Assembly (NCBI RefSeq): GCF_006334915.2
Contig: NZ_VDMA02000016.1
Location: forward strand, 1-64,000
Direction of reading: 5' to 3'
DNA from: Microbispora catharanthi
Lineage (GTDB): Bacteria; Actinomycetota; Actinomycetes; Streptosporangiales; Streptosporangiaceae
DNA length: 64,000 nt
Shown here: one piece after another, positions 12,075-32,359 of the stretch
Layout: every line of letters begins with the position of its first letter
How positions within the stretch are numbered: the stretch's first letter is position 1
The notes under the pieces: model-generated
Told to the model about the DNA's origin: nothing
Databases searched by the model: none
Seen by the model: only the letters and a program-made list of their open reading frames with translations
Position numbers and translations under genes: made by a program

Positions 12075-12091
12075 GGAGGAGGCGGGAGCCC

Positions 12092-12514: not shown

Positions 12515-12523
12515 GACCTGGCC

Positions 12524-12584
12524 GGTTCACTCCATGTGACCACGGTTCAATTGAAGTGACCGGTTACCGGCGTGTACTCAGTAC
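12524..12584. promoter_or_regulatory. Two 18-bp operator-like repeats and a GTACTCAGTAC palindrome
   Basis: GGTTCACTCCATGTGACC (12524-12541) and GGTTCAATTGAAGTGACC (12544-12561) are 20 bp apart, start to start, and share GGTTCA at the left and GTGACC at the right. A perfect GTACT-C-AGTAC palindrome follows at 12574-12584. They resemble the GGTCACC motifs ahead of the HxlR gene. Likely binding sites for that regulator controlling the downstream oxidoreductases. Confidence 0.35.
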
Positions 12585-14024: not shown

Positions 14025-14764
14025 CCCGTCAACGACTCGGAGCGACCATGAAACCCGGCGACGTTCGCACCATCGGCATCCTCGGCGCCGGCAAGGTCGG
14101 CACCGTCCTGGCCCGCCTCGCGGTCGCGGCCGGCTACCGCGCCCTGATAGCGGGCTCCGGGGAGGCCGCACGGATCTCCCTCATCGTCGAGGTCGTCACG
14201 CCCGGGGCGGTCGCGGTGACCGCGGTGGAGGCCGCGTCCGAGGCGGATGTCGTGGTGCTGGCCCTGCCACTTGGTAAGCATCGCAACGTCCCCGCCGAGG
14301 CGCTGCGGGGCAAGCTGGTGCTCGACGCGATGAACTACTGGTGGGAGGTGGACGGGGTGCGGGACGACCTCACCGACCCGCGTACGTCCTCCAGCGAGAT
14401 CGTCCAGGCGTTCCTGCCTCACTCCCGGGTCGTCAAGGCCTTCAACCACATGGGCTACCACGACCTGGAAGAAAGCGCCCGTCCCGCCGGCGCTCCCGGC
14501 CGCCGCGCGATCGCCATCGCCGGCGACGATCCGGACGACGTCGAGGTCGTCGCCTCGATCGTGGACGCGCTCGGCTTCGACCCGGTTATTGTCGGCCCGC
14601 TCGCCGAGGGTGTCCGCATGGAGCCGGGGACGGAGCCGTTCGGCGCGAACGTCGACGCGGCCGAACTGCGCGCCCTGCTTGACCGTTTCCCCGATTCGCA
14701 GCGCGGCGGCGAGGTGCTCCGCGCGCGCGGCGGCGTGACGTCGTCACCCCATCCGACGTCCTGA
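14021..14764 (+). CDS. F420-dependent NADP reductase-like NAD(P)-binding protein
   Basis: 247 residues from GTG 14021 (overlapping the previous stop), or 238 from ATG 14048, where the conserved part starts. Rossmann fold: [24 protein letters not shown] with GxGxxG, then [34 protein letters not shown] and [16 protein letters not shown], as in F420:NADP oxidoreductases and related reductases. It probably cooperates with the LLM enzyme upstream. The first 10 residues may not be translated. Confidence 0.82.
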
Positions 14765-18186: not shown

Positions 18187-18438
18187 CTACCCGACGACGC
18201 CGGAGACGCTGGGCGGCCAGATGCCGACGTTCAGGAGCCGGTGCGCGTAGAAGTAGGCCACGAGCTGACTGCGGTTGCTACAGGCGAACTGGACGAGCAG
18301 CTTGCTGATGCGCTCCGCCACGGTGTACCGGCTGAGGTGCATCTCGCGGGCGATCCTCGTCGTCGTGTAGCCCCTGGCCAGCATGACGATCAGCCACCTG
18401 TCGCGATCATTTATCAGGCCGTCGGAAACAAGGTCCAT
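18187..18438 (-). CDS. Stand-alone LuxR-type HTH regulator
   Basis: 83 residues consisting almost only of a LuxR/FixJ C-terminal DNA-binding domain: DRDRWLIVMLARGYTTTRIAREMHLSRYTVAERISKLLVQFACSNRSQLVAYFYAHRLL. There is no receiver or ligand domain. It is transcribed away from the RiPP cluster and starts 138 bp from the CCCAC-N4-GTGGG promoter of the left operon, so it is the best candidate for the cluster's activator. The ribosome site is weak. Confidence 0.75.
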   Translation of the reverse strand: MDLVSDGLINDRDRWLIVMLARGYTTTRIAREMHLSRYTVAERISKLLVQFACSNRSQLVAYFYAHRLLNVGIWPPSVSGVVG

Positions 18439-18537
18439 GTGCAGTCCCGGGTCGGATCGCCGTTCGACTGAAGGGAGCCTGGTAGGGGTCCCTTTTGCGC
18501 GACCCTAGAAAGGGGCGCTTAACGATCGGTATGGCTT

Positions 18538-18559
18538 GACCATGGCCCCGGTTATGGTC
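18538..18559. promoter_or_regulatory. GACCAT-N10-ATGGTC inverted repeat
   Basis: Perfect 6-bp arms with a 10-bp spacer lie between the LuxR-type gene and the left RiPP operon promoter, on the LuxR side. Possible regulator site for the LuxR gene. Confidence 0.35.
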
Positions 18560-18575
18560 CTCCCGGCCACGCCGG

Positions 18576-18650
18576 TAGCCCACGTTTGTGGGGTTGTGTT
18601 ACCTGCTCGTCCCCGGCTCATACTCGACCTGCGACGCGTTCCGGTCAGGC
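18576..18650 (+). promoter_or_regulatory. Left RiPP operon promoter (twin of 29474-29548)
   Basis: The palindrome CCCAC-GTTT-GTGGG (18579-18592) is followed by a TTGTGT -35-like element, a 19-bp spacer and a CATACT -10 (18619-18624). The first 22 bases are identical to the right operon promoter in the same orientation to transcription, and I count 59 identities in 75 ungapped positions. With a start near 18631, the palindrome centre lies near -45, an activator position. Confidence 0.8.
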
Positions 18651-18724
18651 CGGGGACGAGCGGAGAGCCGCTCACATCGCTCGGGAGCAGACCGACAGCG
18701 GGAGGGCGAAGTGAAGGGCAGGCT

Positions 18725-19666
18725 GTGTTGAGAGATGTCGTGACGGCCGTGGGGCTCACCAAACGCTATCGAGGCAGCGAGAGACCGGCCGTGGACGACG
18801 TCTCCTTCGAGATCGCCGAGGGGGAGACCGTCGGACTCCTGGGCCCCAACGGCGCCGGCAAGACGACACTGATCAAGATGATCTGCGGGGTCACCACCCC
18901 CACCTCCGGTGAGATCCGGGTCTTCGACGCCGATCCGGTGCGCCAGCCCGTCCTCGCGAAGAGCGGCATCGGGGCGATGCACCAGACCGGTCCGTTCGAC
19001 ATGATGCTGCCGGCGCTCGACAACCTGCGGATCGCCGCCCGGTTCCGCGGGCTGCGGTGGCGCGACGTGCGGCCGTGGGCGTTGGAGGTGGCGGACTTCC
19101 TCGGCCTCACCGGTGCGATGCAGCGCCTGGTCTTCCAGATGTCGGGCGGCCAGCGGCAGCGGTTGCAACTGGTGCGGGCGTTGCTCACCATCCCGCAGCT
19201 GCTCATCCTCGACGAGCCCTCCGCGGGCCTGGACGTCGCGGGGCGGCGCCAGGTCGAGCGCTTCGTGACCTGGCTGCGCGAGGAGCACGGCGTGACCGTG
19301 CTGTGGACCAGCCACCACATCGACGAACTTGAGCGCAACAGCCAACGCGTCCTCGTCATCGACCGCGGGAAGGTGCTGCGCTTCGCTAAGCCGCGCGAAC
19401 TCGTGGAGGAGTTCGGCAGCACCCACCTGCTGGTGACCGTCGAGGACCCCGGCTCTGGCGGTCTCGTGGCCACCTGGGCGGAGTCCGCGGGGCTGCGGGC
19501 CAAGGCCGAGGACGACGAGGTGCGCATCGACGACGCGAACGCGCGCGACGTGCTGCCGGAGCTGTCCCGATACTGCCAGGACCACGCGATCGCGATCACG
19601 GGAGTGTCGACCGCCGTGGACTCGCTTGAGGAGGTCTTCCTCCGGATGACCGGGAACGAGGGGTGA
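18725..19666 (+). CDS. ABC transporter ATP-binding protein (RiPP export/immunity)
   Basis: 313 residues from GTG 18725; an open frame continues upstream through the promoter and is not coding. Walker A GPNGAGKTTL, Q-loop MHQTGPFD, signature MSGGQRQRL, Walker B LLILDEPSAGLD and H-loop TSHHID are all present, followed by a C-terminal DrrA-type extension. It pairs with the ABC-2 permease whose start overlaps its stop. Likely exports the mature peptide or gives self-protection. Confidence 0.92.
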   Translation: MLRDVVTAVGLTKRYRGSERPAVDDVSFEIAEGETVGLLGPNGAGKTTLIKMICGVTTPTSGEIRVFDADPVRQPVLAKSGIGAMHQTGPFDMMLPALDNLRIAARFRGLRWRDVRPWALEVADFLGLTGAMQRLVFQMSGGQRQRLQLVRALLTIPQLLILDEPSAGLDVAGRRQVERFVTWLREEHGVTVLWTSHHIDELERNSQRVLVIDRGKVLRFAKPRELVEEFGSTHLLVTVEDPGSGGLVATWAESAGLRAKAEDDEVRIDDANARDVLPELSRYCQDHAIAITGVSTAVDSLEEVFLRMTGNEG

Positions 19667-20481
19667 TGATGGCCGCCGGGCTGCACTTCCACACCGCGCC
19701 CCCCGCCCGGACCGCGAGGGCGGCCGACCTGTCCGCGGTGCTCTACCGGGAGTACGCGCTGCTCGCCCGCAACCGGGTCTACCTCATCCTCGGCCTGACG
19801 CCGATGCTGGTGTACCTGCTGCTGGTGAACACCTCGCTGAGCAACCTCGTCAGGGTCGTCGACTACAAGGGCGTCAGCGTGGGGTTCGCGGTCTTCCTGC
19901 TCCCCATGACGCTGGCGATGTCGGTCGTCAGCGCGGCGGGCACGTCCGCGATGGCCGTGTTCCAGGAGGAGATGAGCGGGGTGGCCACGCAGTTGTGGTC
20001 GTACCCCATGCGCAGGTCGCGCTTCCTGCTCGGCAAGATGATCGCCGGAGTGTCGCTCGTGCTGGGGCAGACCCTGCTGGGCCTCGCCGTCGCGGCGATC
20101 ATGTTCAACCTCCCGTTCGGCCCGGAGAACTGGTTAGGGCTGCTGACGGCGCTCACGCTGTCGGCCCTGGCCCTCAACGGGCTGTACCTGGCGGCCGCGA
20201 TCACGATCACGGACTATCAGGCCTTCATGGTGCTGTCGAACGTGTCGATGCCCGTTCTCGTCTTCAGCGCCCCGTCGATGTACACCACCGAGAGCATGCC
20301 CACCGTGCTGCAGTGGATCTCCGTGGTCAACCCGCTGACGTACGCGATCAACGGCATGCGGGACGCCGCGATCTTCGGTTTCGGCGAGGCATGGGTGGAC
20401 CTGCTCGTGCTGGCGGTCATGGCGGTCGTCGGCTACGCCGTGGGCGGCCGGGCCCTGCTCAACCGCGCCGGCAACATCTGA
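19666..20481 (+). CDS. ABC-2 type transporter permease
   Basis: 271 residues, six predicted helices, with the ABC-2 pattern YREYALLARNRVYLILGLTPMLVYLLL at the N-terminus and MYTTESMPTVLQWISVVNPLTYAINGMRDAAIFG near residues 205-240. GTG 19663 and ATG 19666/19669 are all possible starts; the stop-start overlap with the ATPase gene indicates translational coupling. It forms the membrane half of the cluster exporter. Confidence 0.9.
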   Translation: MMAAGLHFHTAPPARTARAADLSAVLYREYALLARNRVYLILGLTPMLVYLLLVNTSLSNLVRVVDYKGVSVGFAVFLLPMTLAMSVVSAAGTSAMAVFQEEMSGVATQLWSYPMRRSRFLLGKMIAGVSLVLGQTLLGLAVAAIMFNLPFGPENWLGLLTALTLSALALNGLYLAAAITITDYQAFMVLSNVSMPVLVFSAPSMYTTESMPTVLQWISVVNPLTYAINGMRDAAIFGFGEAWVDLLVLAVMAVVGYAVGGRALLNRAGNI

Positions 20482-20526
20482 GCCAGGAACATCCGAGCCG
20501 GCACCATCTGAGCGCACCATCCGACC
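20470..20526 (+). repeat. Short tandem repeats at the permease-YcaO junction
   Basis: Three to four degenerate copies of a 14-16-bp unit (GGCAACATCTGAGCC, GGAACATCCGAGCC, GGCACCATCTGAGCG, CACCATCCGACC) begin in the last permease codons and run into the spacer. One of several such junction repeats in this cluster. Confidence 0.6.
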
Positions 20527-20573
20527 CCGCCGGCTCGATCCCGGCACCTCACCTCGACCAGGGCAAGGGGACG

Positions 20574-21737
20574 ATGCGGACAGACACCTCCTCCCACTCA
20601 TGGATCCTCTCCCTTTCCGACCAGTCGAAGGTCCGGTTGCCGGGAACGGACCGGGCCCGGGACCCTGCCGCCTCGCTGGAGATGGCCGGCCATGCCGGGC
20701 GCAGGGCCGGGATCACCCGGGTCGCGGACATCACGATGCTCGACACCCTCGGCATCCCGACGTTCCAGGCGATAAGGCCAACCGCCCGGACTCTCGCCGT
20801 CTCCCAGGGGAAGGGCGTCACCCCCGACCTGGCGAAGCTGTCGGCGATGATGGAGGCCATCGAGCTCTGGCACGCGGAGCAGCCCATGCGGCCGGTCACG
20901 ACGGCCTCCCCCCGCGAGGTGGCCGGGACGCTGGGCTACGACGTCCACGCCCTCCCGCCGTGCACGCCGACCCTGCTGCACGACGGCCTGCCGGTGGACT
21001 GGGTCGCCGCCAAGTCGCTGGTCGACGGGTCGCAGGCCCTCGTGCCGAGGGACGTGGTGGAGTTCACCCTCGTGCGCAGGACGGGCTGGAACCCGCCGGC
21101 GTTCTTCTCCTCGACCAACGGCCTGGCCAGCGGGAACACGCAGGCGGAGGCCGTCCTGCACGCGTTGTACGAGGTGATCGAACGGGACGCGGTGACGGGC
21201 TTCGTGACCGGCGGCGACCGGGGCGTCCGGATCGACCCGCGCTCGCTCGGGTCGCCGGTCGTCGACGACCTGTGCGTGACCATGGAGCGGGCCGGGGTCC
21301 GCCTGGAAGCGAGGTCGCTGACCTCGCCCACCGGGCTGCCGTGCTTCGTCGCCCGGATCACCTGCGACGACTATCCTCCGCCGTTCCTGGGCTTCGGCTG
21401 CCACCTGAGCTCGGAGATCGCGCTCAGCCGCGCCCTCACCGAGGCCGCGCAGGCCAGGCTGGGCTACGTCTCGGGCGCACGTGACGACCTGCGGCCCGAC
21501 ATCCAGGACGACCTGGCCGCCAAGCGCCGGCCGGAGCCGGCGCAGGAGGCCGGAGCGTCGATATCGCCCATGCACGCGCACGAGAGCCTGGTCGACGACC
21601 TGGAGGACGTGGTGAAACGCGCCGCGGTCGCCTTCTCGTACGCGCCCCTCGTCGTCAACCTGACGAGGGAGGACACCGGAGTCCCGGTCGTCAGGGTGCT
21701 GGCGCCGGGGAGCCGCGTCTGCCCAGAGGTCTTTTGA
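20574..21737 (+). CDS. YcaO-domain peptide backbone-modifying enzyme (TfuA-associated)
   Basis: 387 residues. YcaO enzymes activate a peptide amide with ATP to form azolines, amidines or, with TfuA, thioamides. Visible ATP/Mg-site motifs: SAMMEAIELWHAE near residue 95, HALYEVIERDAVTGF near 195 and LSRALTEAAQARLGY near 285. The C-terminus lacks the PxPxP motif of azoline-forming cyclodehydratases, and the next gene is TfuA, so thioamidation is the favoured reaction. No E1-like or ocin-ThiF partner is present. Start ATG 20574 follows AAGGGG. The stop begins a tandem repeat of start-codon modules. Confidence 0.93.
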   Translation: MRTDTSSHSWILSLSDQSKVRLPGTDRARDPAASLEMAGHAGRRAGITRVADITMLDTLGIPTFQAIRPTARTLAVSQGKGVTPDLAKLSAMMEAIELWHAEQPMRPVTTASPREVAGTLGYDVHALPPCTPTLLHDGLPVDWVAAKSLVDGSQALVPRDVVEFTLVRRTGWNPPAFFSSTNGLASGNTQAEAVLHALYEVIERDAVTGFVTGGDRGVRIDPRSLGSPVVDDLCVTMERAGVRLEARSLTSPTGLPCFVARITCDDYPPPFLGFGCHLSSEIALSRALTEAAQARLGYVSGARDDLRPDIQDDLAAKRRPEPAQEAGASISPMHAHESLVDDLEDVVKRAAVAFSYAPLVVNLTREDTGVPVVRVLAPGSRVCPEVF

Positions 21738-21794
21738 TGAGCAGGGTTTTCTGATGAGCCAGGGTTTTTTGATGAGCGAGGGTGTTCTGATGAG
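21735..21794 (+). repeat. Tandem 17/18-bp repeat of SD-TGATGAGC start modules at the YcaO-TfuA junction
   Basis: The unit GATGAGC-n-AGGGTTTTnT occurs as GATGAGC-AGGGTTTTCT (17 bp), GATGAGCCAGGGTTTTTT, GATGAGCGAGGGTGTTCT and a partial copy. It yields ATGs at 21737, 21754, 21772 and 21790, each preceded by an AGGG/GAGG Shine-Dalgarno-like stretch. The first ATG is out of frame and reads only five codons before a TGA that overlaps the second ATG; the last three are in frame with TfuA. Confidence 0.85.
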
Positions 21795-23121
21795 CTCGCC
21801 GAACGTGGTCGTCTACACCGGCCCGACGATCTCCCGTGACGAGGTCCTGAGCGTCATGCCACAGGCGCGGGTGCGGCCGCCCGTGGCCCGGGGCGACCTC
21901 CTCGCCGAGACCTGGAACCCGGACGACACCGCCGTCATCATCGACGGCTACTACCGCGAGCGGCTGTCGGTGGGCCACAAGGAGATCCTCTGGCTGCTCG
22001 ACGAGGGCGTCCACGTCATCGGCGCGGCCAGCATGGGCGCGTTGCGCGCGGCGGAGCTGAGCCCGTACGGCATGAGCGGCGCAGGGACCGTGTTCGACAT
22101 GTACGCGACCGGCCAGGTCGACGGGGACGACGAGGTCGCCGTGGTGCACGGACCGGCCGAGCGGGGATACCCGGCCGGGACGGTGGCGCTGGTCAACATC
22201 CGGTACGGCTGTCGCGAGGGCGCGCGGACGGGCCTGATCCCGGCGGCGGCAGGGGAGCGGATCGTGCGGGCCGCGAAGGCGCTGCCCTTCATGCGGCGGA
22301 CCTGGCGCGAGCTGGAGGCGGCGGTCGACTCCGGCGACCGCGACCATCTCGGCACGCTGGAGCGGCTGATCGGCACGGGCGAGTGGGACGTCAAGCGGCT
22401 GGACGCGATGGCGGCGCTGCGGGCGGTCGGCGAGGGCCGCGGCGAGAGGTCCGCGGACTGGGCGGCCGACACGGCGCTGACGGGGATCACCCACTACGAG
22501 GCGCTCAAACGGCGGTCGAGGCGTGAGTACGCGCCCGGCAGGTGGATGACAGACCTCGACGTCGTGAACGCGGGGCGGCTGTTCGGCGACGACTACCCGC
22601 GCCTGCACGAGGAGGCGCTGACCGGCCTGCTGACGGACTTCGCCGCAGCTGAAGGCCTCGGCCTGGAGGCGTACGCCCGTGCCGGGCTCGGGGTCGCCGA
22701 GCCCGCCGCCCTGCCGCCCGTCCTCGCGTCGTGGCTCACGGAAACGGAGCTCGCCGCCCTGCCGGTCGCCGAGCAGCTCCGGCTGGTCATGGTGCGGGTC
22801 TGGCCGGTCTGGCAGTCGGAAGACTGGAGGCCGGTCGTCCTGGAACGGGTCAGGGAGTCGGGCCACTGGCACGAGTGGTCCGAGATCGTCGCCCGCGCCG
22901 ACGAGGCGGCGGAGCGGACCCGGGGCAGGCTCGCCGTCCCGCCGCCGGAGATCTGCGCGAAGATCTTCCTGCGCCACTGGCGCCGCAAGGGGACCTCGGC
23001 GGAGGTGGAGTTGGCCCGGCGGGGCTTCACCGGCATGCAGGAGCTGGGAAACACCGTCAGGAGGTTCTTCGCCCTCGACGTCCAGAACGCGCGTGCCGCC
23101 GAGCGGCGAGCCGACGAGTGA
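21790..23121 (+). CDS. tfuA: TfuA-like protein (thioamidation partner of YcaO)
   Basis: 443 residues from ATG 21790; ATGs at 21754 and 21772 would add 12 or 6 residues encoded by the tandem repeat. The TfuA core is clear: NVVVYTGPTISRDEV at the start, then AVIIDGYYRERLSVGHKEILWLLDEGVHVIGAASMGALRAAELSPYGMSGAGTVFDMY. TfuA is thought to deliver sulfide or recruit a sulfurtransferase for YcaO-catalysed thioamide formation. The C-terminal 250 residues are an extension without recognised domains. It lies 50 bp behind YcaO in the same operon. Confidence 0.9.
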   Translation: MSSPNVVVYTGPTISRDEVLSVMPQARVRPPVARGDLLAETWNPDDTAVIIDGYYRERLSVGHKEILWLLDEGVHVIGAASMGALRAAELSPYGMSGAGTVFDMYATGQVDGDDEVAVVHGPAERGYPAGTVALVNIRYGCREGARTGLIPAAAGERIVRAAKALPFMRRTWRELEAAVDSGDRDHLGTLERLIGTGEWDVKRLDAMAALRAVGEGRGERSADWAADTALTGITHYEALKRRSRREYAPGRWMTDLDVVNAGRLFGDDYPRLHEEALTGLLTDFAAAEGLGLEAYARAGLGVAEPAALPPVLASWLTETELAALPVAEQLRLVMVRVWPVWQSEDWRPVVLERVRESGHWHEWSEIVARADEAAERTRGRLAVPPPEICAKIFLRHWRRKGTSAEVELARRGFTGMQELGNTVRRFFALDVQNARAAERRADE

Positions 23122-23280
23122 GCGAAGCGGTGGGCCGAGGGACGAGGCCGCCCGCGTAGCGAACGAGGAGGGGAGCGCGACCATGAGCCGAGCGGCGAGC
23201 CGACGAGTGAGCGGAGCGGGTGTGGGTCGAGGGACGAGGCCGCTCGCGTAGCGAACGAGGAGGGGAGCGCGACCATGAGC
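23101..23280 (+). repeat. Tandem ~88/91-bp duplication at the TfuA-P450 junction
   Basis: Copy 1 (23101-23188) and copy 2 (23190-23280) both run from GAGCGGCGAGCCGACGAGTG to GAGGAGGGGAGCGCGACC-ATGAGC, differing by a few substitutions and about 3 bp. Copy 1 contains the last TfuA codons; each copy ends in a strong ribosome site plus ATG. Confidence 0.9.
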
Positions 23281-23367
23281 ACGGGAGCCGCTGACGCCGG
23301 CCGGGTGCGCCCCGGCGGACGGCCGTGTCCGGAACCGTCGGTGCGCCCCGCGAGGAGAGGGTCATGA
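23275..23367 (+). CDS. Possible 30-codon ORF coupled to P450
   Basis: ATG 23275 follows GAGGAGGGG and encodes MSTGAADAGRVRPGGRPCPE followed by PSVRPARRGS. Its TGA overlaps the P450 ATG (ATGA), so translating it could couple P450 synthesis. It has no resemblance to the precursor peptide. It may only be a by-product of the repeat that carries its ribosome site. Confidence 0.3.
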   Translation: MSTGAADAGRVRPGGRPCPEPSVRPARRGS

Positions 23368-24629
23368 CCGCGACCACGCTCGAGCAGCCGTTCGACCCGG
23401 CGGCCGCACGGCATCGTCCGAACCCCCACCCGCTGTTCCACCGCATGCGCGAGCACGCGCCGGTCTACCGGTTCGTGAGCCCGGCGAGCGGCCGGGTGCT
23501 GTGGTACCTGACGCGGTACGCCGACGTGCAGCGTGCGCTGCTCGACCCGGACGTCGGGCGTCAGCTCGACCGGCTGCCCCCCGATCTCGCCGCGCCGCAC
23601 CGCCGGGCGGAGAGCCGCGACCCGCTGGCCATGCTGCGGCGCAACGTGTTCCATCTCGACCCGCCCGACCACACCCGCATACGCCGGCTGATGGCGCCGG
23701 CCTTCGGCACCCGTACGGTGGCCGTGCTGGAGCGGCACGTCCACCGGGTCGCGGGCGAACTGGTGGACGGCATGGCGGCCGCCGGTGGCGGGGCCGACCT
23801 GATCCGGGACCTGGCGCTGCCGCTGCCGATCCTGGTCGTCGCCGAGCTGCTCGGCCTGCCCGTCGAGGACCGCGCCCGGCTGCGCGGGTGGAGCGACGAG
23901 ATCGTGGGCAGCGGGGATCCGTTCCGGGTGCGCCGCGCCGGCATGGAGTTCATGGCGTACGCCAACGAGAGGATCGACGAGCGGCGGGCGCACCCGGGGG
24001 AGGACCTGCTGTCCCGGCTCGCCGAGGCGGAGCGGGCGGGTGGGATCAGCCGCGTCGAACTGATCTCCAGCGTGTTCCAGCTGCTGCTCGCCGGGGACGA
24101 GACGACGGTCAACCTGATCGGGAACGGCGTGCTGGAGCTGCTGCGGCACCCACACGAGCTGGAGCGGCTGCGCGCCCGCCCCGAGCTGATCGGGTCGATG
24201 GTCGAGGAGGCGCTGCGGTACAACGGCCCGGTCGGGCACTCCCGGCCGCTGTATGCCCTCGCCGACGTCGAGATCGGCGGGACCGTGATCCCCCGCGGGG
24301 ACATCGTGGTGCCGGTGCTGCTGGCGGCCAACCGCGACCCGGCGGTCTTTCCCCGGCCGGACGTCTTCGACATCGGCCGCAGCCCGAACCGTCACCTGGG
24401 CTTCGGCCACGGCGTCCACTTCTGCCTCGGCGCGGCGCTGGCGCGGCTGCAGGCCGCGGCCGCGATCGGCGCGCTGGTGCGCCGCTTCCCCGAAATCGCC
24501 CTGGTGGTCGATCCCGCCGATCTCGAGTGGACGCCCGACCTGTTCCTGCACGGGGTGCGCCGCCTCCCCCTGCGGCTACGCGCTCGCCAGACACCTGTCA
24601 GACGCCGAAAGGAGCCGGCCCATGAGTGA
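23364..24629 (+). CDS. Cytochrome P450
   Basis: 421-residue soluble bacterial P450 that oxidises or cross-links a substrate using ferredoxin electrons. Marks: HLDPPDHTRIRRLMAPAF (C helix), I-helix LLLAGDETTVNL, ExxR in EEALRYN, and heme loop FGHGVHFCLGAALAR with the proximal Cys. The start overlaps the 30-codon ORF and the end overlaps the methyltransferase start by 8 bp, fixing it in the operon. The likely substrate is the modified peptide (hydroxylation or aryl coupling at Trp83). No ferredoxin gene is in the cluster. Confidence 0.94.
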   Translation: MTATTLEQPFDPAAARHRPNPHPLFHRMREHAPVYRFVSPASGRVLWYLTRYADVQRALLDPDVGRQLDRLPPDLAAPHRRAESRDPLAMLRRNVFHLDPPDHTRIRRLMAPAFGTRTVAVLERHVHRVAGELVDGMAAAGGGADLIRDLALPLPILVVAELLGLPVEDRARLRGWSDEIVGSGDPFRVRRAGMEFMAYANERIDERRAHPGEDLLSRLAEAERAGGISRVELISSVFQLLLAGDETTVNLIGNGVLELLRHPHELERLRARPELIGSMVEEALRYNGPVGHSRPLYALADVEIGGTVIPRGDIVVPVLLAANRDPAVFPRPDVFDIGRSPNRHLGFGHGVHFCLGAALARLQAAAAIGALVRRFPEIALVVDPADLEWTPDLFLHGVRRLPLRLRARQTPVRRRKEPAHE

Positions 24630-25656
24630 CCGAGCGCGAGGCCTCGCGGGGTACGCGAACCTGTCCCGAATGGCCTTCGGCTACGCGTCCTCGCAGATCC
24701 TCTACGCGGCCGTCCGGCTCGGCGTGCCGGATCTGCTGGCGCAGGGGGACGTACCGGTGACGCGGCTCGCCGAGGCGACCGAATCGGACCCGCACGCGCT
24801 GGGCCGGCTGCTGCGCGCGCTGGTGGTGCTGGGCGTGGCGGAGGAGGGGGAGCCCGGGTGGTTCGGGCTGACGGAGCAGGGGCAGCCGCTGCGCGCCGAC
24901 CACCCGTGGTCGATGCGCTCCAGCCTCCTGCTGCTCGGCGACCCCGACACCTGGCGGGCGTGGGGGGCGCTGACCCACAGCGTCCGGACCGGTGAGGCGG
25001 CGTGGGAGCACGTGCACGGCAGGCCGCTTTTCGACCACCTCGCCCGCCACCCGGAGCTGTCGGCGGTGTTCAACAGGGCGATGCGCGAGGGCACAGAACA
25101 GATCGCGCCCGCGCTCCCCAGGGCGTACGACTTCAACGGCGCCCACACCCTGGTCGACGTCGGCGGCGGGAACGGCTCGCTGCTGGCCGCGGTGCTGGCC
25201 GCGACCCCCGGCATCAAGGGAATCCTGTTCGACACCGCCGAGGGGGTCGCGGGCGCCGCCGAGGAGCTCCGGCTGGCGGGGCTGTCCGACCGGTGCTCCA
25301 TCGAGACCGGCGACTTCTTCGAGGCGGTGCCCGAGGGGGACGTCATGCTGGTGAAGGGCGTCCTGCACGACTGGGACGACCGGCGCTGCATCGCTCTTCT
25401 GCGCAGTTGCCGCAGGTCGATAGCGGCGGACGGCCGCCTGCTCGTGCTGGAGCCGGTCATGCCGTCCGGCCTCGGCACGCCGGAGGCGGCGGGGGCCGTC
25501 ATGAGCGACATCGCCATGCTCGTCTACACCGGCGGCCGGGAACGCGGCATGACCGAGTTCCGGGACCTGTTCGCCGCGGCCGGCTTCGAGCTGGCCGAGG
25601 TCACGCCTCCGCTGGGGGGCTCGGCGATCCGGGCGCTCGTCGCGAAGCCGGCCTGA
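24622..25656 (+). CDS. SAM-dependent O-methyltransferase (COMT type)
   Basis: 344 residues. N-terminal winged-helix dimerisation domain (ASSQILYAAVRLGVPDLLAQGDVPVTRLAEATESDPHALGRLLRALVVLGV) and a C-terminal Rossmann domain with VDVGGGNGSLLAAVL (SAM), ETGDFFEAVPEGDVMLVKGVLHDWDD (catalytic His in the LHDW motif) and EPV. It resembles plant-COMT-like natural-product O-methyltransferases. In this cluster it may methylate a hydroxyl introduced by the P450, or the peptide C-terminus. Confidence 0.92.
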   Translation: MSDRARGLAGYANLSRMAFGYASSQILYAAVRLGVPDLLAQGDVPVTRLAEATESDPHALGRLLRALVVLGVAEEGEPGWFGLTEQGQPLRADHPWSMRSSLLLLGDPDTWRAWGALTHSVRTGEAAWEHVHGRPLFDHLARHPELSAVFNRAMREGTEQIAPALPRAYDFNGAHTLVDVGGGNGSLLAAVLAATPGIKGILFDTAEGVAGAAEELRLAGLSDRCSIETGDFFEAVPEGDVMLVKGVLHDWDDRRCIALLRSCRRSIAADGRLLVLEPVMPSGLGTPEAAGAVMSDIAMLVYTGGRERGMTEFRDLFAAAGFELAEVTPPLGGSAIRALVAKPA

Positions 25657-25702
25657 GCTCGGCCCCCGGATCGCGCTGTGAACCCGTGAGGCGGGCACGG
25701 GG

Positions 25703-25785
25703 CTTTCAGCGGGTGCGGAGCTCAGCGGGTGCAGGCTTTCAGCGGCGGAGTTCAGCGGCGGAGCTCAGCGGGTGCGGACTCAGCT
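25703..25785. repeat. Degenerate ~15-bp tandem repeats between the convergent operons
   Basis: About six copies of a unit like GCTCAGCGGGTGCGGA or TTCAGCGGCGGAG fill the 123-bp gap between the methyltransferase and FAD-oxidoreductase genes and reach the stop codon of the latter. Confidence 0.7.
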
Positions 25786-27237
25786 GGTCGCGGCGGCGAA
25801 CCGCGAGCGCCGCCACGCGGCCAGGACCGGGTACTGCCCGATCGCCTCCTCGCCGGTGAGAAGGGGCTCCGGCCGCCCGGTCAGCACCCGGGCGATCTCC
25901 GACCTGTCCGTCGCGGTGTCGCCGGAGATCAACGTCTGGACGCCGAAGAAGTCGGCGGCGAGCCGCGGGCTGCTCAGCTTCGCCTGGGCCAGGCGGGTGC
26001 GGATCTCGAGTTCGAACGCGTTGGGCTCCCGTCGCGGTGCACCGTCGAGGCCGGCCCGCTCTGTGACCCGCTCCCCGGCCCGCTCTGTGACCCGCTCCCC
26101 GGCCCGCTCTGTCACCCGCTCTCCGTCCTGCTCGATCGCCATCCGCCAGGACCGCTCCGCCTCCGCCGCGAGGGCGGCCTGGAGCCCGGCGAACAGGGAC
26201 GGCCCGAGCCCGTGCCGTGCCAGCTCCTCGCGCAGCCTGAGCGCGCCGAGCGCGGCGACCGACATCCCGTGCGAGTGGACGGGATTCACCGCGACGGCCG
26301 CGTCGCCGACGACGGCGAAACCGGCGGGCAGGCGCGCCCGCTCGAAGAACCGCCTTCTGTTGACGGTGTCGCGGTACGGCCGGACGACGCCGAGGGGGGT
26401 GGCCTCCGCCATGAGGTCCGCCACGATCGGGTGGCGCAGCGAGCGCGCGAAGGCCGTGAAGCCCTGCTCGTCCGTCGGCGGCTCGCCGCCCCGGGTGCCG
26501 GTCAGCGTGACGATCCACCGGCGGTCCTCGACGGGGAACAACGTCGCCCCGCGAGCCGGCTGCCCCTTCGCCGTCCCCGGGTGCAGCATGATCGCCGGGA
26601 TCGCGGCGGCCAGGTCGCCGGGCGCCTGGTAGAGGCGCGTCGCGTAGGCCAGCCCGGTGGCGACCGACACCTCCTCGACTTCCCCGGCACCGATCTGGGC
26701 GAGCCACCGGGGCGACTGCGACCGGCGTCCCGTCGCGTCGACGACGAGGTCCGCACGTACGGTCTCGGGCGGGGCGCCCTGCCGGCTGACCGAGACGCCG
26801 GTGATCCGGGCCTCGTCTCCGGTGAGCCCGAGCGCCCGCGTGTCCTCCCAGACCTCGACGTCGCCGCCGCCGAGCGCCCGCCGCCGCACCACCTGGTCCA
26901 GCAGTCCACGGGTGCAGGAGATCAGGTGGGCGTCGGTGTGGAGACGGTGGAACCAGCCGTCGGCGGAGTAGATGAGGGCGTCGCCGGGCAGGCCCCGCAG
27001 GTGGGCGCCGTTCGCGAGCAGGGCGTCGACCGTTCCGGGCAGCAACGCGTCCAGCGCCCGCGCGCCGCCGGCCACGAGCACGTGACTGTGGTGCGACTGG
27101 GGCAGCCCCCGCCGCGGGCGTGGACCGGACGGGTAGCGGTCGCCTTCGACCAGGACCACCTCGTCCGCGTGCCCGGCGAGCACGGCGGCGGCGAGCACGC
27201 CCGCGAGGCCACCGCCGAGGACGACCGCCCTGCTCAT
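25780..27237 (-). CDS. FAD-dependent oxidoreductase/halogenase-like enzyme of the RiPP cluster
   Basis: 485 residues from ATG 27237. N-terminal FAD fold SRAVVLGGGLAGVLAAAVLAGHADEVVLVEGDRYP, then DLVVDATGRRSQSPRWL and GFAVVGDAAVAVNPVHSHGMSVAALGALRLREEL, the GD motif of group A flavoproteins related to squalene-monooxygenase-like and halogenase-like enzymes. A WxWxIP halogenase motif is not visible. Near residue 380 lies a tandem GERVTERA repeat (three copies) absent from typical relatives. Last gene of the precursor operon. Probable role: oxidation of the peptide. Confidence 0.85.
   Translation of the reverse strand: MSRAVVLGGGLAGVLAAAVLAGHADEVVLVEGDRYPSGPRPRRGLPQSHHSHVLVAGGARALDALLPGTVDALLANGAHLRGLPGDALIYSADGWFHRLHTDAHLISCTRGLLDQVVRRRALGGGDVEVWEDTRALGLTGDEARITGVSVSRQGAPPETVRADLVVDATGRRSQSPRWLAQIGAGEVEEVSVATGLAYATRLYQAPGDLAAAIPAIMLHPGTAKGQPARGATLFPVEDRRWIVTLTGTRGGEPPTDEQGFTAFARSLRHPIVADLMAEATPLGVVRPYRDTVNRRRFFERARLPAGFAVVGDAAVAVNPVHSHGMSVAALGALRLREELARHGLGPSLFAGLQAALAAEAERSWRMAIEQDGERVTERAGERVTERAGERVTERAGLDGAPRREPNAFELEIRTRLAQAKLSSPRLAADFFGVQTLISGDTATDRSEIARVLTGRPEPLLTGEEAIGQYPVLAAWRRSRFAAATS
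26051..26122 (-). repeat. Three 24-bp in-frame repeats inside the FAD oxidoreductase gene
   Basis: The 24-bp unit starting CCGGCCCGCTCTGTGACCCG occurs three times with one or two changes and encodes three copies of GERVTERA. It is in frame and likely forms a charged helical insert between the FAD core and the C-terminal region. Confidence 0.85.
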
Positions 27238-27304
27238 CGGGCCAGGCCAGGCGGACGCGCGACCGGCGGACACGGCGCCGGCGGATGCGCGGCCGGCGGA
27301 CGCG

Positions 27305-27616
27305 TCACGACAGCGACTCTTCCTTGACCGCGGGCTCCTCGGCCGGGATCTCCTCGATGAGGCCCTGCTCGATCATCGCGCCGAGGAACTCCTCGACGTC
27401 GGCCACGATGCGCCTGCTCATCGCGGAGTTGCTGCCGGCGAACTCGCGGGACAGCTTGAACATGACCGGCTCCCGTTCGCCGTCGCTCGCAACCAGCCTC
27501 CATATCCGGGAGCCGGTGTCGTTCAGGCTGTGGAAGTCGCCCGTCTCGGTGTTGTAGAGCGAGACGCCCTCCCCGGTCTCCTGCCAGATCACGGCCTCAC
27601 TGATCCGCAGTGACAC
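27305..27616 (-). CDS. PqqD-like RiPP recognition element protein
   Basis: 103 residues from a GTG at 27616 with GAGGAGG upstream. The sequence SLRISEAVIWQETGEGVSLYNTETGDFHSLNDTGSRIWRLV and DVEEFLGAMIEQGLIEE matches the PqqD winged-helix fold that binds RiPP leader peptides and presents them to a radical SAM enzyme. It follows the radical SAM gene by 11 bp. It probably binds the helical leader (residues 1-50) of the 91-aa precursor. Confidence 0.85.
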   Translation of the reverse strand: MSLRISEAVIWQETGEGVSLYNTETGDFHSLNDTGSRIWRLVASDGEREPVMFKLSREFAGSNSAMSRRIVADVEEFLGAMIEQGLIEEIPAEEPAVKEESLS

Positions 27617-27627
27617 ATCGACCTCCT

Positions 27628-29100
27628 CTATACCGGCGTGATGGGAAGCAACTCGCCGACCCTGACGGTGCCGCGCGAGGGGAGAACATAGGTCTTCCAG
27701 TCGTCGAAGACGGGATGGACGTCGCCGTTGACGACCAGGCGGGGTGTCGTCATCTCGCGCTCGTCGGCGGCGAGCTCCGAGCGGCTGACACCGGCCTCCA
27801 TCCACAGCTGCGTGGCGACGCCGTGCCGCAGGATCCGGCACTGGTGGCGGCTGTTGCGCCGCAGGTCCCCGGACTCCGCCATGTGCGCGGCCCGGCATCC
27901 GCCGCCGCAGGACGCCTTGATGTAGCACTTCGCGCAGTCGGCGTGGTAGTCGCCGCCGAGCACGGTGCTGGTGCGCATCCCGCGCAGGAGCGGCCCGGCG
28001 AAGATCTCCGACAGCGGCTGCCGCCGTACGTTGCCCGCGTGGTGCGACCGTCCGGTGACGAGCTTGCACGGATACACGTCGCCCAGCGAGTTGATGTAGA
28101 TCTCGTTGCCGCCCATCCCGCAGTTGGCCTTCACCGAGCACGGCGTGATCGGCCGCGGGCCGTCGGGCAACAGCTTGCCTGCGGCCGGAGACGTCCAGGT
28201 GATCTGCTGGATCCGCATGTGGTCTTCCCAGCCGAAGTCGTACTCGTCGGTCTCGCCCCGGCCCAGGTCGTTGTGGTACATCAGCCGGATGCTGTGGACC
28301 TCGAGCCCCTCGGCGAACCTCGCGAAGTCCTCCAGCTCGTCCACGTTGTCGGAGGTGACGATGTGGTTGATCCGCGGCACCACACCGGCGTCGTTGAGCA
28401 GCCGCAGCGCGCGGTAGGTCCGGGCGAAGGAGCCGGCGCCGCGGGTGCGGTCGTGGGTCTCGGCCGTTCCGCCGTCGACGCTCACCGTGACCATGCCGAA
28501 CAGCTCGGCGAAGCGCTTGGCCTGCGCGGGCGTCCTGATCATCGTGGCGTTGGTGACGATGTTCGACGTCAGTCCGCTGTCGTTGGCGTACTCCACGATG
28601 CGGAACAGGTCCTTGCGGAGCATGGGCTCGCCGCCGGTGAAGATCATGGTCTTCGCTCCGATGGCGGCGACCTGGGAGACCAGGCCGAGCGACTCGGCGG
28701 TGGTGAGCTCCCCGGGCAGGCACTTCTCCGAGGAGGCGTAGCAGTACGGGCAGCGGAGGTTGCAGCCGTCGGTGATCGCGTAATACACCTGGCGGAGCGC
28801 CGGCTCCTTGATGCTGAGCTTCGGACGGTTCCCGTTGTAGTAGACGATGCAGTTCAGGATGAGCTTGGCGAGGGTCCGCTCGGTCTCGCCGGTCTCGTCG
28901 GTCTCGCCGAGGGGGGCCGGCTCCCCGCCCGCCCGGGGACGGGCCAGGGCCGCCAGGACGGCGAACTCACGCGCGTCGAGGACGATCCGGCCGCCCACCT
29001 GCGGGTTGAGGACCAGATACTTCCCGTCGTGCACGAAGTAGGTCAGGTCTGCCGGTACGTCGATCAACGAGCGGTTCCGGGCGAGTTTCCCAGGCATCAT
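27628..29100 (-). CDS. Radical SAM/SPASM peptide maturase
   Basis: 490 residues (or 489 from the ATG at 29097, better spaced from AAAGGGG). An N-terminal RRE-like segment (YFVHDGKYLVLNPQVGGRIVLDAREFAVLAAL), then the radical SAM core with CNLRCPYCY (Cys113, 117, 120 for the 4Fe-4S cluster) and FTGGEPMLRKD, and a C-terminal SPASM region with auxiliary-cluster cysteines (TPCSVKANC, DVYPCKL, CAKCYIKASCGGGC, HQC). Such enzymes make thioether, C-C or C-N cross-links in peptides. The probable substrate is the CLC/Trp core of the adjacent precursor. Confidence 0.94.
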   Translation of the reverse strand: MMPGKLARNRSLIDVPADLTYFVHDGKYLVLNPQVGGRIVLDAREFAVLAALARPRAGGEPAPLGETDETGETERTLAKLILNCIVYYNGNRPKLSIKEPALRQVYYAITDGCNLRCPYCYASSEKCLPGELTTAESLGLVSQVAAIGAKTMIFTGGEPMLRKDLFRIVEYANDSGLTSNIVTNATMIRTPAQAKRFAELFGMVTVSVDGGTAETHDRTRGAGSFARTYRALRLLNDAGVVPRINHIVTSDNVDELEDFARFAEGLEVHSIRLMYHNDLGRGETDEYDFGWEDHMRIQQITWTSPAAGKLLPDGPRPITPCSVKANCGMGGNEIYINSLGDVYPCKLVTGRSHHAGNVRRQPLSEIFAGPLLRGMRTSTVLGGDYHADCAKCYIKASCGGGCRAAHMAESGDLRRNSRHQCRILRHGVATQLWMEAGVSRSELAADEREMTTPRLVVNGDVHPVFDDWKTYVLPSRGTVRVGELLPITPV

Positions 29101-29183
29101 TCCCCTTTACGCTCAGCCGCAGGTGCGGCCCCAGACTCTGTGGGTGACGCGCGGCCGGAGCCGCACCCGCGAAACCGTCCTGA

Positions 29184-29459
29184 CTAGTCCGCCCCGGACC
29201 CGGAGCCCGACCAGGCTCCGCACAGGCACTTGCCCTCGACCGGCACGGTGTGGGCCTCGACCTCGGGCCGGGACCACTCGCCACCGGCGCCGGCGTGCGC
29301 CAGCACACCGGGCAGCGCGGCGGGGAGCTTGTCCTTGAGCGAGATGAGCAGGGCGACTTCCTCCCGGGTCAAGGTGGCGAACGCCTCCTCGACTTCGGCG
29401 GCCAGCGGGCTGTTCAGGATGCCGGCTTCACGCAGAGCTTCCCTCGGATCGAAGGCCAT
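29184..29459 (-). CDS. RiPP precursor peptide, 91 aa, core CLCGAWSGSGSGAD
   Basis: ATG 29459 follows GAGAGG. Residues 1-50 are an amphipathic acidic leader (DPREALREAGILNSPLAAEVEEAF, then LTREEVALLISLKDKLPAALP), 51-77 a linker, and 78-91 the likely core CLCGAWSGSGSGAD with Cys78, Cys80 and Trp83. No cysteine occurs elsewhere. It is the first gene of the right operon, ahead of radical SAM and PqqD-like genes. I do not recognise a named precursor family. The Lys77/Cys78 cleavage point is a guess. Confidence 0.85.
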   Translation of the reverse strand: MAFDPREALREAGILNSPLAAEVEEAFATLTREEVALLISLKDKLPAALPGVLAHAGAGGEWSRPEVEAHTVPVEGKCLCGAWSGSGSGAD

Positions 29460-29473
29460 GCCTTCACCTCTCT

Positions 29474-29548
29474 GTCTGACGGGAATGCGGTGTATGTCGA
29501 GTATGTGCTGGTGAGAAGTGGGTGAGACAACCCCACAAACGTGGGCTA
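29474..29548 (-). promoter_or_regulatory. Right RiPP operon promoter (twin of 18576-18650)
   Basis: Read on the minus strand, the first 22 bases are identical to the left promoter, including CCCAC-GTTT-GTGGG (29532-29545). A TTGTCT -35-like element and CATACT -10 (29500-29505) follow at the same spacing. Transcription should start near 29493, giving a 34-nt leader before the precursor ATG. Confidence 0.8.
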
Positions 29549-29860: not shown

Positions 29861-30469
29861 ATGAGTGTTTCACCGAGCACGAGTTACCGGGATCGGCTGA
29901 ACGAGAAGCTGTTCCAGCAACGGACCCTGTTGCTGACCGGAGAGGTCGACGACGAGATGGCCGAGCGGGCGTGCGCCGAAATGGTGTTGCTGGCCTCGGC
30001 GGATCCCGAACGCGACATCATCCTGTACATCAATTCGCCGGGAGGGTCGGTGCTGGCCGGGCTGGCGATCTACGACACGATGAAGCTGGTGCCGAACGAC
30101 GTGGTCACCGTCGCGCTGGGGATGGCGGCGAGCATGGGGCAGGTGCTGCTGGCGTCCGGCACCCACGGCAAGCGGATCAGCCTCGCGCACAGCCGGATCA
30201 TGATGCACCAGCCGTCGGCGGGCATCGGCGGCACGGCGATCGACATCTCGATCCAGGCCGAGAACCTCAAGTACATGAAGCGGCAGTCCGAGGAGATCCT
30301 CGCCGCGGAGACGGGACGCACGATCGAGGAGATCTCCGCCGACAGCGACCGGGACCGCTGGTTCACCCCGGAGCAGGCCCGCGACTACGGGATGATCGAC
30401 ACGATCGTCGACTCCTTCCACAGCATCGCGCCGTACGCCGTTCCCAACCGGATGGGGTTCTCGTCATGA
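29861..30469 (+). CDS. clpP: ATP-dependent Clp protease proteolytic subunit (ClpP3-like)
   Basis: 202-residue serine protease subunit. Catalytic Ser in [10 protein letters not shown], His in MMHQPSAG and Asp in DRDRW. The oligomer degrades ClpX/ClpC-delivered substrates. The stop overlaps the second clpP start (ATGA). The PopR boxes upstream and the PopR-like gene downstream identify this as the inducible, non-essential clpP3-clpP4-type operon rather than housekeeping clpP1P2. Confidence 0.95.
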
Positions 30470-31056
30470 GCCAGTACACGATCCCGTACGTGGTCGAGAA
30501 GACCCCGGTGGGGGAGCGGTCGTTCGACATCTTCAGCCGGCTGCTCAACGAGCGCATCATCTTCCTCGGAACGGAGATCGACGACGGCGTCGCCAACGTC
30601 GTGATGGCACAGTTGCTGCACCTGGAGGCGGAGAGCCCTGACCAGGAGATCAACCTGTACATCAACTCCCCGGGCGGCTCGTCGACCGCGATGCTCGCCA
30701 TCTACGACACCATGCAGTTCATCCGCGCGAAGGTCGCGACGTACTGCATGGGCCAGGCGGCCTCCGCCGCCGCGGTGCTGTTCGCCGCCGGCGCCCCCGG
30801 ACGGCGGTTCATGCTCGGCCACTCCCGCGTGCTGCTGCACCAGCCGTCCACGCAGGGGCAGGGGACGATCTCCGACCTGACCCTGCAGGCGGCCGAGGTG
30901 ATGCGTGTGCGCGCGCAGACCGAGGAGATCCTCAGCCGTCACACCGGGGTCGACGTCGCCAGGCTGCGCGAGGACACCGACAGGGACCGCGTCTTCAGCG
31001 CTCGCGAGGCCGTCGAGTACGGCCTCGCCGACGAGCTCATCATGACCCGCGAGTAG
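30466..31056 (+). CDS. clpP: ATP-dependent Clp protease proteolytic subunit (ClpP4-like)
   Basis: 196 residues, translationally coupled to the upstream clpP. It keeps His in [11 protein letters not shown] and DRDRVF, but the region equivalent to the catalytic serine reads [11 protein letters not shown]: Ser is present at the second position of ASA as GQAASAAA, the usual variant context of ClpP4-type subunits. The two probably form a mixed tetradecamer. The convergent PopR-like gene starts its stop codon only 3 bp away. Confidence 0.94.
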
Positions 31057-31059
31057 CGC

Positions 31060-31437
31060 TCACGCCGCCAGCAGCTGCACCCGTGGCGTACCGGCCGACC
31101 CAGGCGTCGCGATACGCCGCGACGCCGTGATCCGCCGGACGGCACGGGTGAGCAGGTGCTCGATCGGCAACCCGAGGGCGTCGCACACCGAACGCAGCAT
31201 CTCCGACGACGGCTCCTTGCGGCCGCGCTCGACCTCCGACAGATACTGCTTCGACATGCCCACCGCACGCGCCACGTCGTCGAGCGTGCGGTCCTGGTCC
31301 AGCCGCTCGTCGCGGAGGATCTCCCCGTACACCCTGCGTAGCAACGGGTCCGGGCCGTCGGGAATGGCCGGGCCGCGCTCCTTGCCGGCCCGGCGCGTCC
31401 GGATGTCGATGACCACTGATCGGCCCGAGGCTGCCAT
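31060..31437 (-). CDS. popR: PopR/ClgR-type HTH activator with C-terminal Leu-Ala-Ala
   Basis: 125 residues from ATG 31437. XRE-type HTH: LRRVYGEILRDERLDQDRTLDDVARAVGMSKQYLSEVERGRKEPSSEMLRSVCDALGLPIEHLL. The protein ends in ...RVQLLAA. In Streptomyces lividans, PopR activates clpP3-clpP4 and is degraded by ClpP1P2 through its terminal Ala-Ala, so position, fold and tail all agree. A CTGCCA-N4-TGGCAG palindrome covers its own start codon. Confidence 0.8.
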   Translation of the reverse strand: MAASGRSVVIDIRTRRAGKERGPAIPDGPDPLLRRVYGEILRDERLDQDRTLDDVARAVGMSKQYLSEVERGRKEPSSEMLRSVCDALGLPIEHLLTRAVRRITASRRIATPGSAGTPRVQLLAA

Positions 31438-31446
31438 GTCTGGCAG
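31431..31446. promoter_or_regulatory. CTGCCA-N4-TGGCAG palindrome over the popR start
   Basis: CTGCCATGTCTGGCAG has perfect 6-bp arms and overlaps the ATG of popR. It shares CTGCC/GGCAG with the boxes upstream of clpP, so popR may control itself. Confidence 0.5.
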
Positions 31447-31573
31447 TCTGGCACGCCCCGACCCTGAGCGGACCGCGTGTTCGCGGACAGGTGAGCGGGC
31501 CGACCGGACGGGGGTGGAGAGGGCGCAGGCGAGACCACGAGGGGTCGAGTGCCCCGAGGTGCGGTGACGCACG

Positions 31574-32359
31574 TCAGGGCCCGCCGAGCCCCCGGGTGAT
31601 CGAGCGTGCCGCCGTCCGTACGGCAGGCCCGAGCAGCCGCGGTTCGGCGTGCTCCTCCGGCAGGACCACGGACAACGCCGCCGCGATCCGGCCCCGGCGG
31701 CGAAGACGGGCGCCGCCACGGTGACCAGCGGCTCGGGAGCGTGGCGACGGACCGTGGCCAGCCCCTCCCGCCGCACCTCGGCCGGCGTCCGCCGCAACTC
31801 GGCGGGGGACCGCGCTCCGCTCCGGCTCGTGCACGAGCGGCCGGGCGAGGATCTCCTCCTGGAATCCGGGTTCGGCGAAGGCCGGCAGGACCAGCCCCAC
31901 GCCCGTGGAGTGCAGCGGAAGCCGTCCGCCGACGCGGTAGAGCACCGGCATCGCCTGGTGCGCGGAGAGCCTCTCGACCAGCACCGCATCGTCGCTCTCG
32001 CGTACGGCGAGCAGCACGTGCTGGCGGGTGACCTCGGCGAGGTCGCCCATGTAGGGCATCGCCACCTGCCGAAGCCCTTGGCCTCGCGGCGCGAGCGAGG
32101 CCACCTCCCACAGGCGCAGTCCGATCGAGAAGCGGCCGTCGTCTCCCCGTTCGAGCGCGCCCCACGCGGTCAGCCGTGAGGCCAGGCGCAGCGCCGAACT
32201 CGCCGGAATCCCGCTGCGCCTGCTCAGCTCGGCGAGCGTCAGATGGCAGTGCCGGGTGTCGAAGGCGGCCAGGAGCGACAGCGCCCGATCGACCACCGGA
32301 TCGCCGTGCGGCGGCCGGCTGCCCCTGACCCGGTGCGCGGGCGCCCCCGGGCCGTTCAT
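31574..32359 (-). pseudogene. IclR-family regulator disrupted by two compensating frameshifts
   Basis: The N-terminal HTH (DRALSLLAAFDTRHCHLTLAELSRRSGIPASSALRLASRLTAWGALER) and first ligand-domain half are intact from ATG 32359. Near 31815 the conserved reading moves to another frame (ELRRTPAEVRREGLATVRRHAPEPLVTVAAPVFAAG) and near 31695 it returns to the first (RIAAALSVVLPEEHAEPRLLGPAVRTAARS). Either two compensating indels changed about 40 residues, or these are sequencing errors in GC-rich DNA. No obvious target gene. Confidence 0.7.

Follow-up and report, generated by a model that had tools for sequence, protein, structure and literature searches.

The stretch considered here, referred to as the window, comprises 64,000 nucleotides (nt) of Microbispora catharanthi DNA (contig NZ_VDMA02000016.1; the source genome amounts to 9.25 Mb in 68 contigs), and the analysis concerns a putative gene cluster for a ribosomally synthesised and post-translationally modified peptide (RiPP) at positions 18187-29548. 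The cluster consists of one regulatory gene and ten genes for biosynthesis or transport, all of the named genes being open frames that match their families (Table 1). On the plus strand the order is ATP-binding cassette (ABC) transporter ATPase, permease, YcaO, TfuA, cytochrome P450 and O-methyltransferase (OMT), and on the minus strand precursor peptide, radical S-adenosylmethionine (SAM)/SPASM enzyme, PqqD-type RiPP recognition element (RRE) and flavin adenine dinucleotide (FAD) enzyme, this second operon converging on the first. An earlier note on this DNA had described two convergent operons with these enzymes and a 91-residue precursor, and the frames and family matches agree with it; an ABC exporter and a LuxR-type regulator, both absent from its gene list, are also present. 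Both the existence of this gene set and its conservation are confirmed, none of its frames is interrupted, and a single product is very probable. On balance it is probable that the cluster encodes a jointly regulated RiPP pathway in which an StsB-type enzyme would form sactionines, YcaO and TfuA would install a thioamide, and the FAD enzyme, the P450 and the OMT would act on a tryptophan.

Table 1. Features of the cluster, with positions in the window and the match or conservation on which each assignment is based
Feature	Position	Strand	Basis
LuxR-type (GerE) DNA-binding protein, 83 residues	18187-18438	minus	PF00196 27.8 bits
Candidate operator AGCCCACGTTTGTGGGGTTGT, copy before plus-strand operon	18577-18597	plus	identical twin at 29527-29547
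ABC transporter ATPase (DrrA-like), TTG start assumed	18728-19666	plus	PF00005 108 bits; TIGR01188 below cut-off
ABC-2 permease	19663-20481	plus	PF01061 83 bits
YcaO, TfuA-partnered	20574-21737	plus	PF02624 232 bits; 6pe3 100 bits
TfuA, 455 residues	21754-23121	plus	PF07812 139 bits; 6xp8 94 bits over residues 18-184
Cytochrome P450	23325-24629	plus	PF00067 101 bits
OMT (Methyltransf_2), HDWDD motif	24622-25656	plus	PF00891 165 bits
Flavin enzyme, Lsd18/MonCI epoxidase family	25780-27273	minus	8up4 333 bits
PqqD-type RRE, StsC counterpart	27305-27616	minus	PF05402 37.7 bits
Radical SAM/SPASM sactipeptide maturase, StsB family	27628-29100	minus	NF045574 909 bits, cut-off 625
Precursor peptide, 91 residues	29184-29459	minus	NF045559 142 bits, cut-off 75
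Predicted core CLCGAWSGSGSGAD, residues 78-91	29187-29228	minus	CxC[GA]xWSG[SA]G kept across relatives
WSRP, leader WxxP recognition motif, residues 62-65	29265-29276	minus	WxxP kept across relatives
Candidate operator AGCCCACGTTTGTGGGGTTGT, copy before precursor operon	29527-29547	minus	identical twin at 18577-18597

The sactipeptide character of the cluster is indicated by the precursor and by its presumptive maturase. The precursor belongs to NCBIfam NF045559 'StsA-related sactipeptide RiPP' and its residues 4-55 form an 'aroma-sacti' domain (NF045560, 68.5 bits), the cut-offs of both entries, which carry a name only, being exceeded. Across the 32 genomes defined below there are 35 precursor genes, 33 of them distinct, and every distinct precursor has the WxxP motif (WxxPE in all except a second copy in genome G239, which has WxxPG) followed by a CxC[GA]xWSG[SA]G core in which the Trp is the sole aromatic residue and from which Tyr is absent. 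The nearest named relatives, judged by the precursor, are M. rosea, M. amethystogenes and M. hainanensis. The radical SAM enzyme is a member of NF045574, the 'StsB family sactipeptide maturase', and all 33 radical SAM enzymes compared have the motif CNLRCPYC and eight further invariant Cys residues. Precord et al. in 2023 reportedly found that StsB of Streptomyces sparsogenes forms sactionines. The earlier note had inferred a cross-linked peptide, and its cross-link can be refined to a sactionine as the most likely bond. Two precursors of the StsA type per cluster were seen in tandem in G233 and G239 (L052 5794-6659 and L053 5926-6568), and Sphaerisporangium melleum has two divergent ones (L044 8970-9257 and 9842-10267).

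The passages of PMC12710340 that deal with the Sts system, there credited to Precord et al. 2023, present StsC as a discrete RRE with the WxxP of StsA as its ligand, this motif being needed for StsA-StsC binding. The window resembles StsABC in its StsB-family enzyme, its stand-alone PqqD-type RRE and its WxxP leader motif, but StsA is short and has its own model, NF045558, and the window adds YcaO, TfuA, the FAD enzyme, the P450 and the OMT to genes of the StsABC type. A still simpler arrangement is found on pSCAT of Streptomyces cattleya (L150 15765-19545), where the radical SAM enzyme is 57.7% identical to that of the window and scores 738 bits against NF045574; WxxP, the CxC core, the RRE and the ABC pair are shared, the precursor has 36 residues, and no match to YcaO, TfuA, FAD enzyme, P450 or OMT was found within 33 kb. 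This pSCAT is a megaplasmid, and the L150 genes are absent from the plasmid table listing.

The second kind of machinery is the YcaO-TfuA pair. These genes are adjacent and accompanied by a local precursor, and are kept so in 31 of the 32 genomes compared. The nearest solved structure to YcaO is MJ1094 (6pe3); its score with TIGR03266 (McrA thioamidation) is 205 bits, below the cut-off, against 105 bits with the SagD-type model. The motif ExxERDA occurs in 31 of 31 YcaO proteins and two other rough patterns in 29 and 20 of the 31. TfuA extends for about 270 residues past the region matched by the solved TfuA domain (6xp8), and the motif GAASMGALRAAE is present in 30 of 31 TfuA proteins. The YcaO-TfuA RiPPs named in the part of a 2026 preprint that treats them (PMC13174530) are thioviridamide-like compounds, thiovarsolins, thioamidated thiopeptides, chimeric lanthipeptides and std, with no sactipeptide among them; an adjacent YcaO-TfuA pair is what the window has in common with these, and the sactipeptide genes are where it differs.

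The distribution of the cluster was established with models of the precursor and of StsB. Of 250 genomes from the family, 25 pass the cut-off of the precursor model (44 match at E 0.001, of which the 19 below the cut-off were not counted), as do four of 394 genomes of a class sample, all four from the genus of the source, and six of 392 Streptomyces; a second search of these 392 with the StsB model returned the same six, and in all six YcaO-TfuA lies in the neighbouring stretch. In the phylum set of 396 genomes the StsB model was exceeded in one only, the source genome itself, and the loose matches obtained from 386 of them at E 0.001 were discarded as relatives, being generic radical SAM enzymes under the cut-off. 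No StsB relatives were found in viral contigs and no precursor matches on plasmids, while the search of plasmids with the radical SAM enzyme gave two S. cattleya records.

The set used for comparison comprised the 25 family genomes (Streptosporangiaceae), Nonomuraea aurantiaca and the six Streptomyces, and gene presence was scored by tblastn, the gene caller having chosen antisense frames for some of the cluster genes. The precursor, radical SAM enzyme, PqqD, FAD enzyme and permease are each present in 32 of 32 genomes, and the ABC ATPase in 31, the missing one belonging to a stretch that is cut inside the gene. YcaO and TfuA are likewise in 31 genomes, G233 being the exception. The P450 is in 25, those without it being G239 and all six Streptomyces, where the Streptomyces matches of 34-39% identity (in three of the six genomes) were scored as absent, cluster P450s having at least 61%; the OMT is in 19 and never occurs without the P450. 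The earlier note's reading of one RiPP precursor served by backbone machinery (YcaO-TfuA), side-chain machinery (radical SAM/SPASM), oxidases and a methyltransferase is supported, these genes being conserved together. An S9 peptidase occurs in 10 of the 32, never with the OMT, and at each of the five loci whose gene order was viewed (L046, L052, L053, L061 and L120) it comes after the FAD gene. There is a subtilase in the cluster region of 23 of the 25 non-Microbispora genomes, in most cases accompanied by a GAF protein and a cyclase-AAA protein; a related subtilase module in the source genome lies on contig C67, outside the cluster.

The third group of enzymes appears to be concerned with the core Trp. 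The earlier note's FAD oxidoreductase is a flavin enzyme as stated, and can now be placed more narrowly, its closest solved relatives being Lsd18/LasC (8up4, 333 bits, E 3.2e-98) and MonCI (273 bits, E 6.2e-80), with near full-length homology to Lsd18 over residues 15-466 of 497; the one Streptomyces relative tested has an FAD enzyme with the same likeness. Lsd18 and MonCI act on the alkenes of polyketide substrates in polyether pathways, and we know of no flavin epoxidase of this type in a RiPP pathway; among the open-licence papers listed on the topic, none mentions Lsd18. A rough FAD nucleotide pattern is found in 28 of the 32 enzymes and a second FAD pattern in 22. Matches to the flavin enzymes of tryptophylquinone formation (QhpG at 5e-9, LodB and GoxB) are all sub-cut-off, and the candidate role of QhpG-like Trp hydroxylase was demoted when the PDB search gave Lsd18 and MonCI. 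For the P450 the nearest solved structures are PksS and PikC, a rough haem pattern being present in 16 of 25 (the window included), and for the OMT CalO6 at 351 bits, with HDWDD in 19 of 19.

The occurrence of these three enzymes is nested, FAD enzyme over P450 over OMT, which fits a stepwise series. The OMT is also linked to the core: the residue before the Trp is Ala in 19 out of 19 genomes with the OMT and Leu, Ile or Val in the 13 without it, which suggests, without proving it, Trp or an adjoining position as the site of OMT action. The OMT pattern requires three parsimony changes on a concatenated tree, and 70 of 200,000 random three-change characters equalled it; Sphaerimonospora, which has no OMT and has Ile before the Trp, is the sister of Microbispora with a support of 100. 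Since the core is without Tyr, a hydroxyl placed on Trp by the FAD enzyme or the P450 would be the simplest acceptor for the OMT.

Joint control of the two operons is suggested by an identical 21-base site, AGCCCACGTTTGTGGGGTTGT, before both of them. It lies 130 nt ahead of 18728, where the ABC gene is assumed to start, and 67 nt ahead of the precursor start at 29459. CATACTCGAC, with a -10-like CATACT, lies 21 nt after each copy, and the 17-base core of the site, with one mismatch allowed, occurs at only these two places in the genome. The site is found with zero to four changes before the precursor in Herbidospora, Nonomuraea, Sphaerisporangium, Sphaerimonospora and Streptomyces, and also before the ABC operon in those Streptosporangiaceae loci whose stretch covers that place. 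We infer a putative activator site overlapping the -35 region, for which the LuxR-type protein is the most likely binder, and both operons are probably regulated together. The LuxR-type gene is present in 25 of the 32 genomes, and the remaining seven stretches stop at or inside the ABC ATPase gene. A 653-residue protein encoded beside the cluster in one relative (L045 17644-19605) and its homologues has a BTAD/SARP-type activator part and an N-terminal half that is ATP-grasp-like by eye.

From the gene content the following sequence of events may be proposed, both sites and order being provisional. The PqqD-type RRE would hold the precursor through WxxP while the StsB-family enzyme joined one or both of the Cys residues of CxCGxWSGSG to alpha-carbons in the Gly/Ser-rich tail, as sactionines. 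With YcaO and TfuA, sulfur would take the place of oxygen in one or more backbone carbonyls, an invariant Gly of the core being a plausible site, and the Lsd18/MonCI-like flavoenzyme would oxygenate the indole of the invariant Trp, which the P450 may oxidise further before the OMT caps the new hydroxyl. The leader would be cut by a protease encoded outside the locus, the product would leave by the ABC exporter, and one regulator, probably the 83-residue LuxR-type protein, would switch both operons through the shared site. More tentatively, and we regard this as possible but doubtful, the product may be a sactipeptide that is also thioamidated, perhaps the first of its kind, and on which a polyether-type flavin epoxidase oxidises Trp, so far as a RiPP is concerned, with a sactionine-bridged CxCGxWSGSG, a thiocarbonyl at one or more core Gly and an oxidised, P450-elaborated and O-methylated indole.

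A number of points weigh against this proposal. All of the product chemistry is predicted from DNA. The biochemistry of StsB concerns the short StsA, and with the model of the latter (NF045558, 38 positions) no match was obtained for the precursor of the window up to E 0.001; the scores of a Streptomyces relative and of the S. cattleya peptide, 16.9 and 24 bits respectively, stay below the cut-off of 42. Indole oxidation by the FAD enzyme is an extrapolation from the alkene-acting Lsd18 and MonCI, and the link between OMT and Ala rests on about three events in a tree in which several deep nodes have a support of 50-79. The Pfam search found no peptidase among the cluster's own genes in the window, and in the six Streptomyces the operator was found only at the precursor and not before the ABC-YcaO-TfuA genes. 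Finally, G233 (L052) has kept its precursors, radical SAM enzyme, RRE, FAD enzyme and P450 and lost the cluster YcaO-TfuA, from which it follows that thioamidation was dispensable at least once; the idea that a cluster-type pair had merely moved was rejected, the sole TfuA elsewhere in that genome being 33% identical and of another type. The same loss, with the core motif intact, together with the S. cattleya cluster of StsB-like, RRE and ABC genes without YcaO-TfuA, would be expected of a sactipeptide that has an oxidised Trp and no peptide thioamide, YcaO-TfuA either making some other backbone change or being dispensable. Such a product seems rather unlikely when the pair has been retained in 31 of 32 genomes and its YcaO lies nearer to MJ1094 and TIGR03266, sub-cut-off as the latter score is, than to the SagD type.

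The nature of the cross-link and the unity of the pathway can be weighed in a similar way. A ranthipeptide or other radical SAM product, with a beta- or gamma-thioether or a carbon-carbon cross-link in place of sactionines, would accord with the label that antiSMASH attaches to such clusters (PMC8120280, in its account of them) and with the weak matches of the radical SAM enzyme to the PapB and WgkB models, but these fall far below their cut-offs (84 bits for PapB against 909 for the StsB model) and 17 of the 33 distinct cores have no acidic residue able to serve as a ranthionine acceptor, which makes this decidedly unlikely. Nor is there much to commend two side-by-side pathways, with the YcaO-TfuA operon serving another peptide: the operons of the window are on opposite strands, a minimal StsB cluster exists without YcaO-TfuA and Streptomyces show the operator only before the precursor, but both operons share an operator in the window and its Streptosporangiaceae relatives, the two gene groups are co-retained in 31 of 32 genomes, and the whole row of genes between ABC and FAD, both included, lies on one strand in L046 and L053, so that two unrelated products are unlikely and the idea as a whole very improbable. 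Tryptophylquinone cofactors are made by the QhpD-QhpG logic, and a product of that sort, in which Trp became a quinone or was joined to Cys, would make sense of the Cys held near Trp in CxCGxW and of the sub-cut-off resemblance of the FAD enzyme to QhpG, LodB and GoxB; with Lsd18 and MonCI by far its closest solved relatives, it is hardly to be expected. The jointly regulated pathway with sactionines, thioamide and modified Trp is preferred.

The cluster type itself is already on record, and the earlier note's description of it as undescribed does not stand: NCBIfam has family names for the precursor and the radical SAM enzyme, and TfuA-YcaO clusters that include radical SAM/SPASM, PqqD, P450 and OMT genes appear in a survey of 2021 for Sphaerisporangium, Microbispora and Herbidospora, where they carry the antiSMASH label ranthipeptide and where the section on them names no product (Malit et al. 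2021, PMC8120280). The clusters of its figure 5B have the same six-gene composition as the window when compared by gene content, precursors aside, and all six genes were found here at the Microbispora, Herbidospora and Sphaerisporangium album loci that it names, S. melleum being without the OMT. The StsB assignment, the epoxidase-type flavoenzyme and the operator are absent from the survey's section on these clusters. The part of PMC6511847 covered here does not name Microbispora, Herbidospora or Nonomuraea. As far as searched, the new elements are the assignment to StsB within this type of TfuA cluster, the membership of an epoxidase-type flavoenzyme, the operator common to both operons, the genes lost naturally in some relatives, and the link between OMT and Ala.

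RiPPs with backbone thioamides and RiPPs with thioethers made by radical SAM enzymes are both known, but neither a thioamidated sactipeptide nor any characterised product with both thioamide and thioether was found in the open-licence literature searched. As the family occurs in several genera, and YcaO-TfuA, the P450 and the OMT have been lost naturally in some members, each tailoring step can be tested by comparing producers, and G233 lends itself to such a comparison for the thioamide step. The shared 21-base site offers a way to switch on the cluster, and the link of Ala before Trp predicts the position of the methyl group.

A few neighbouring genes deserve mention. Two adjacent ClpP-type genes beside the precursor (window 29861-31056), the first recognised by Pfam and the second by sequence and position, adjoin an HTH_3 regulator at 31060-31989. 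They were considered as self-resistance genes and rejected, for they lie near the cluster in only three of 32 genomes, the window included (a count in which the contig of G206 stops before the ClpP place), and have the HTH_3 gene as neighbour; the pair is probably a chance neighbour of the precursor. Also outside the cluster are an X-Pro dipeptidyl-peptidase family (S15) protein at 37663-39255 and, more distant, an Erythromycin-esterase family protein (PF05139, 153.7 bits) at 49548-50774. The leader domain of the precursor recurs in a core-less module consisting of a 60-70-residue protein with that domain, a cyclase-AAA protein, a subtilase and a GAF protein, which is found in the source genome (L135, G000:C67:18000-37999, at 9965-14763), in Streptomyces and in other relatives (L126, L127, L129-L132, L136 and L137, and partly L128 and L134). 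This module is possibly a peptide-sensing system, and the donor of the domain to the precursor leader.

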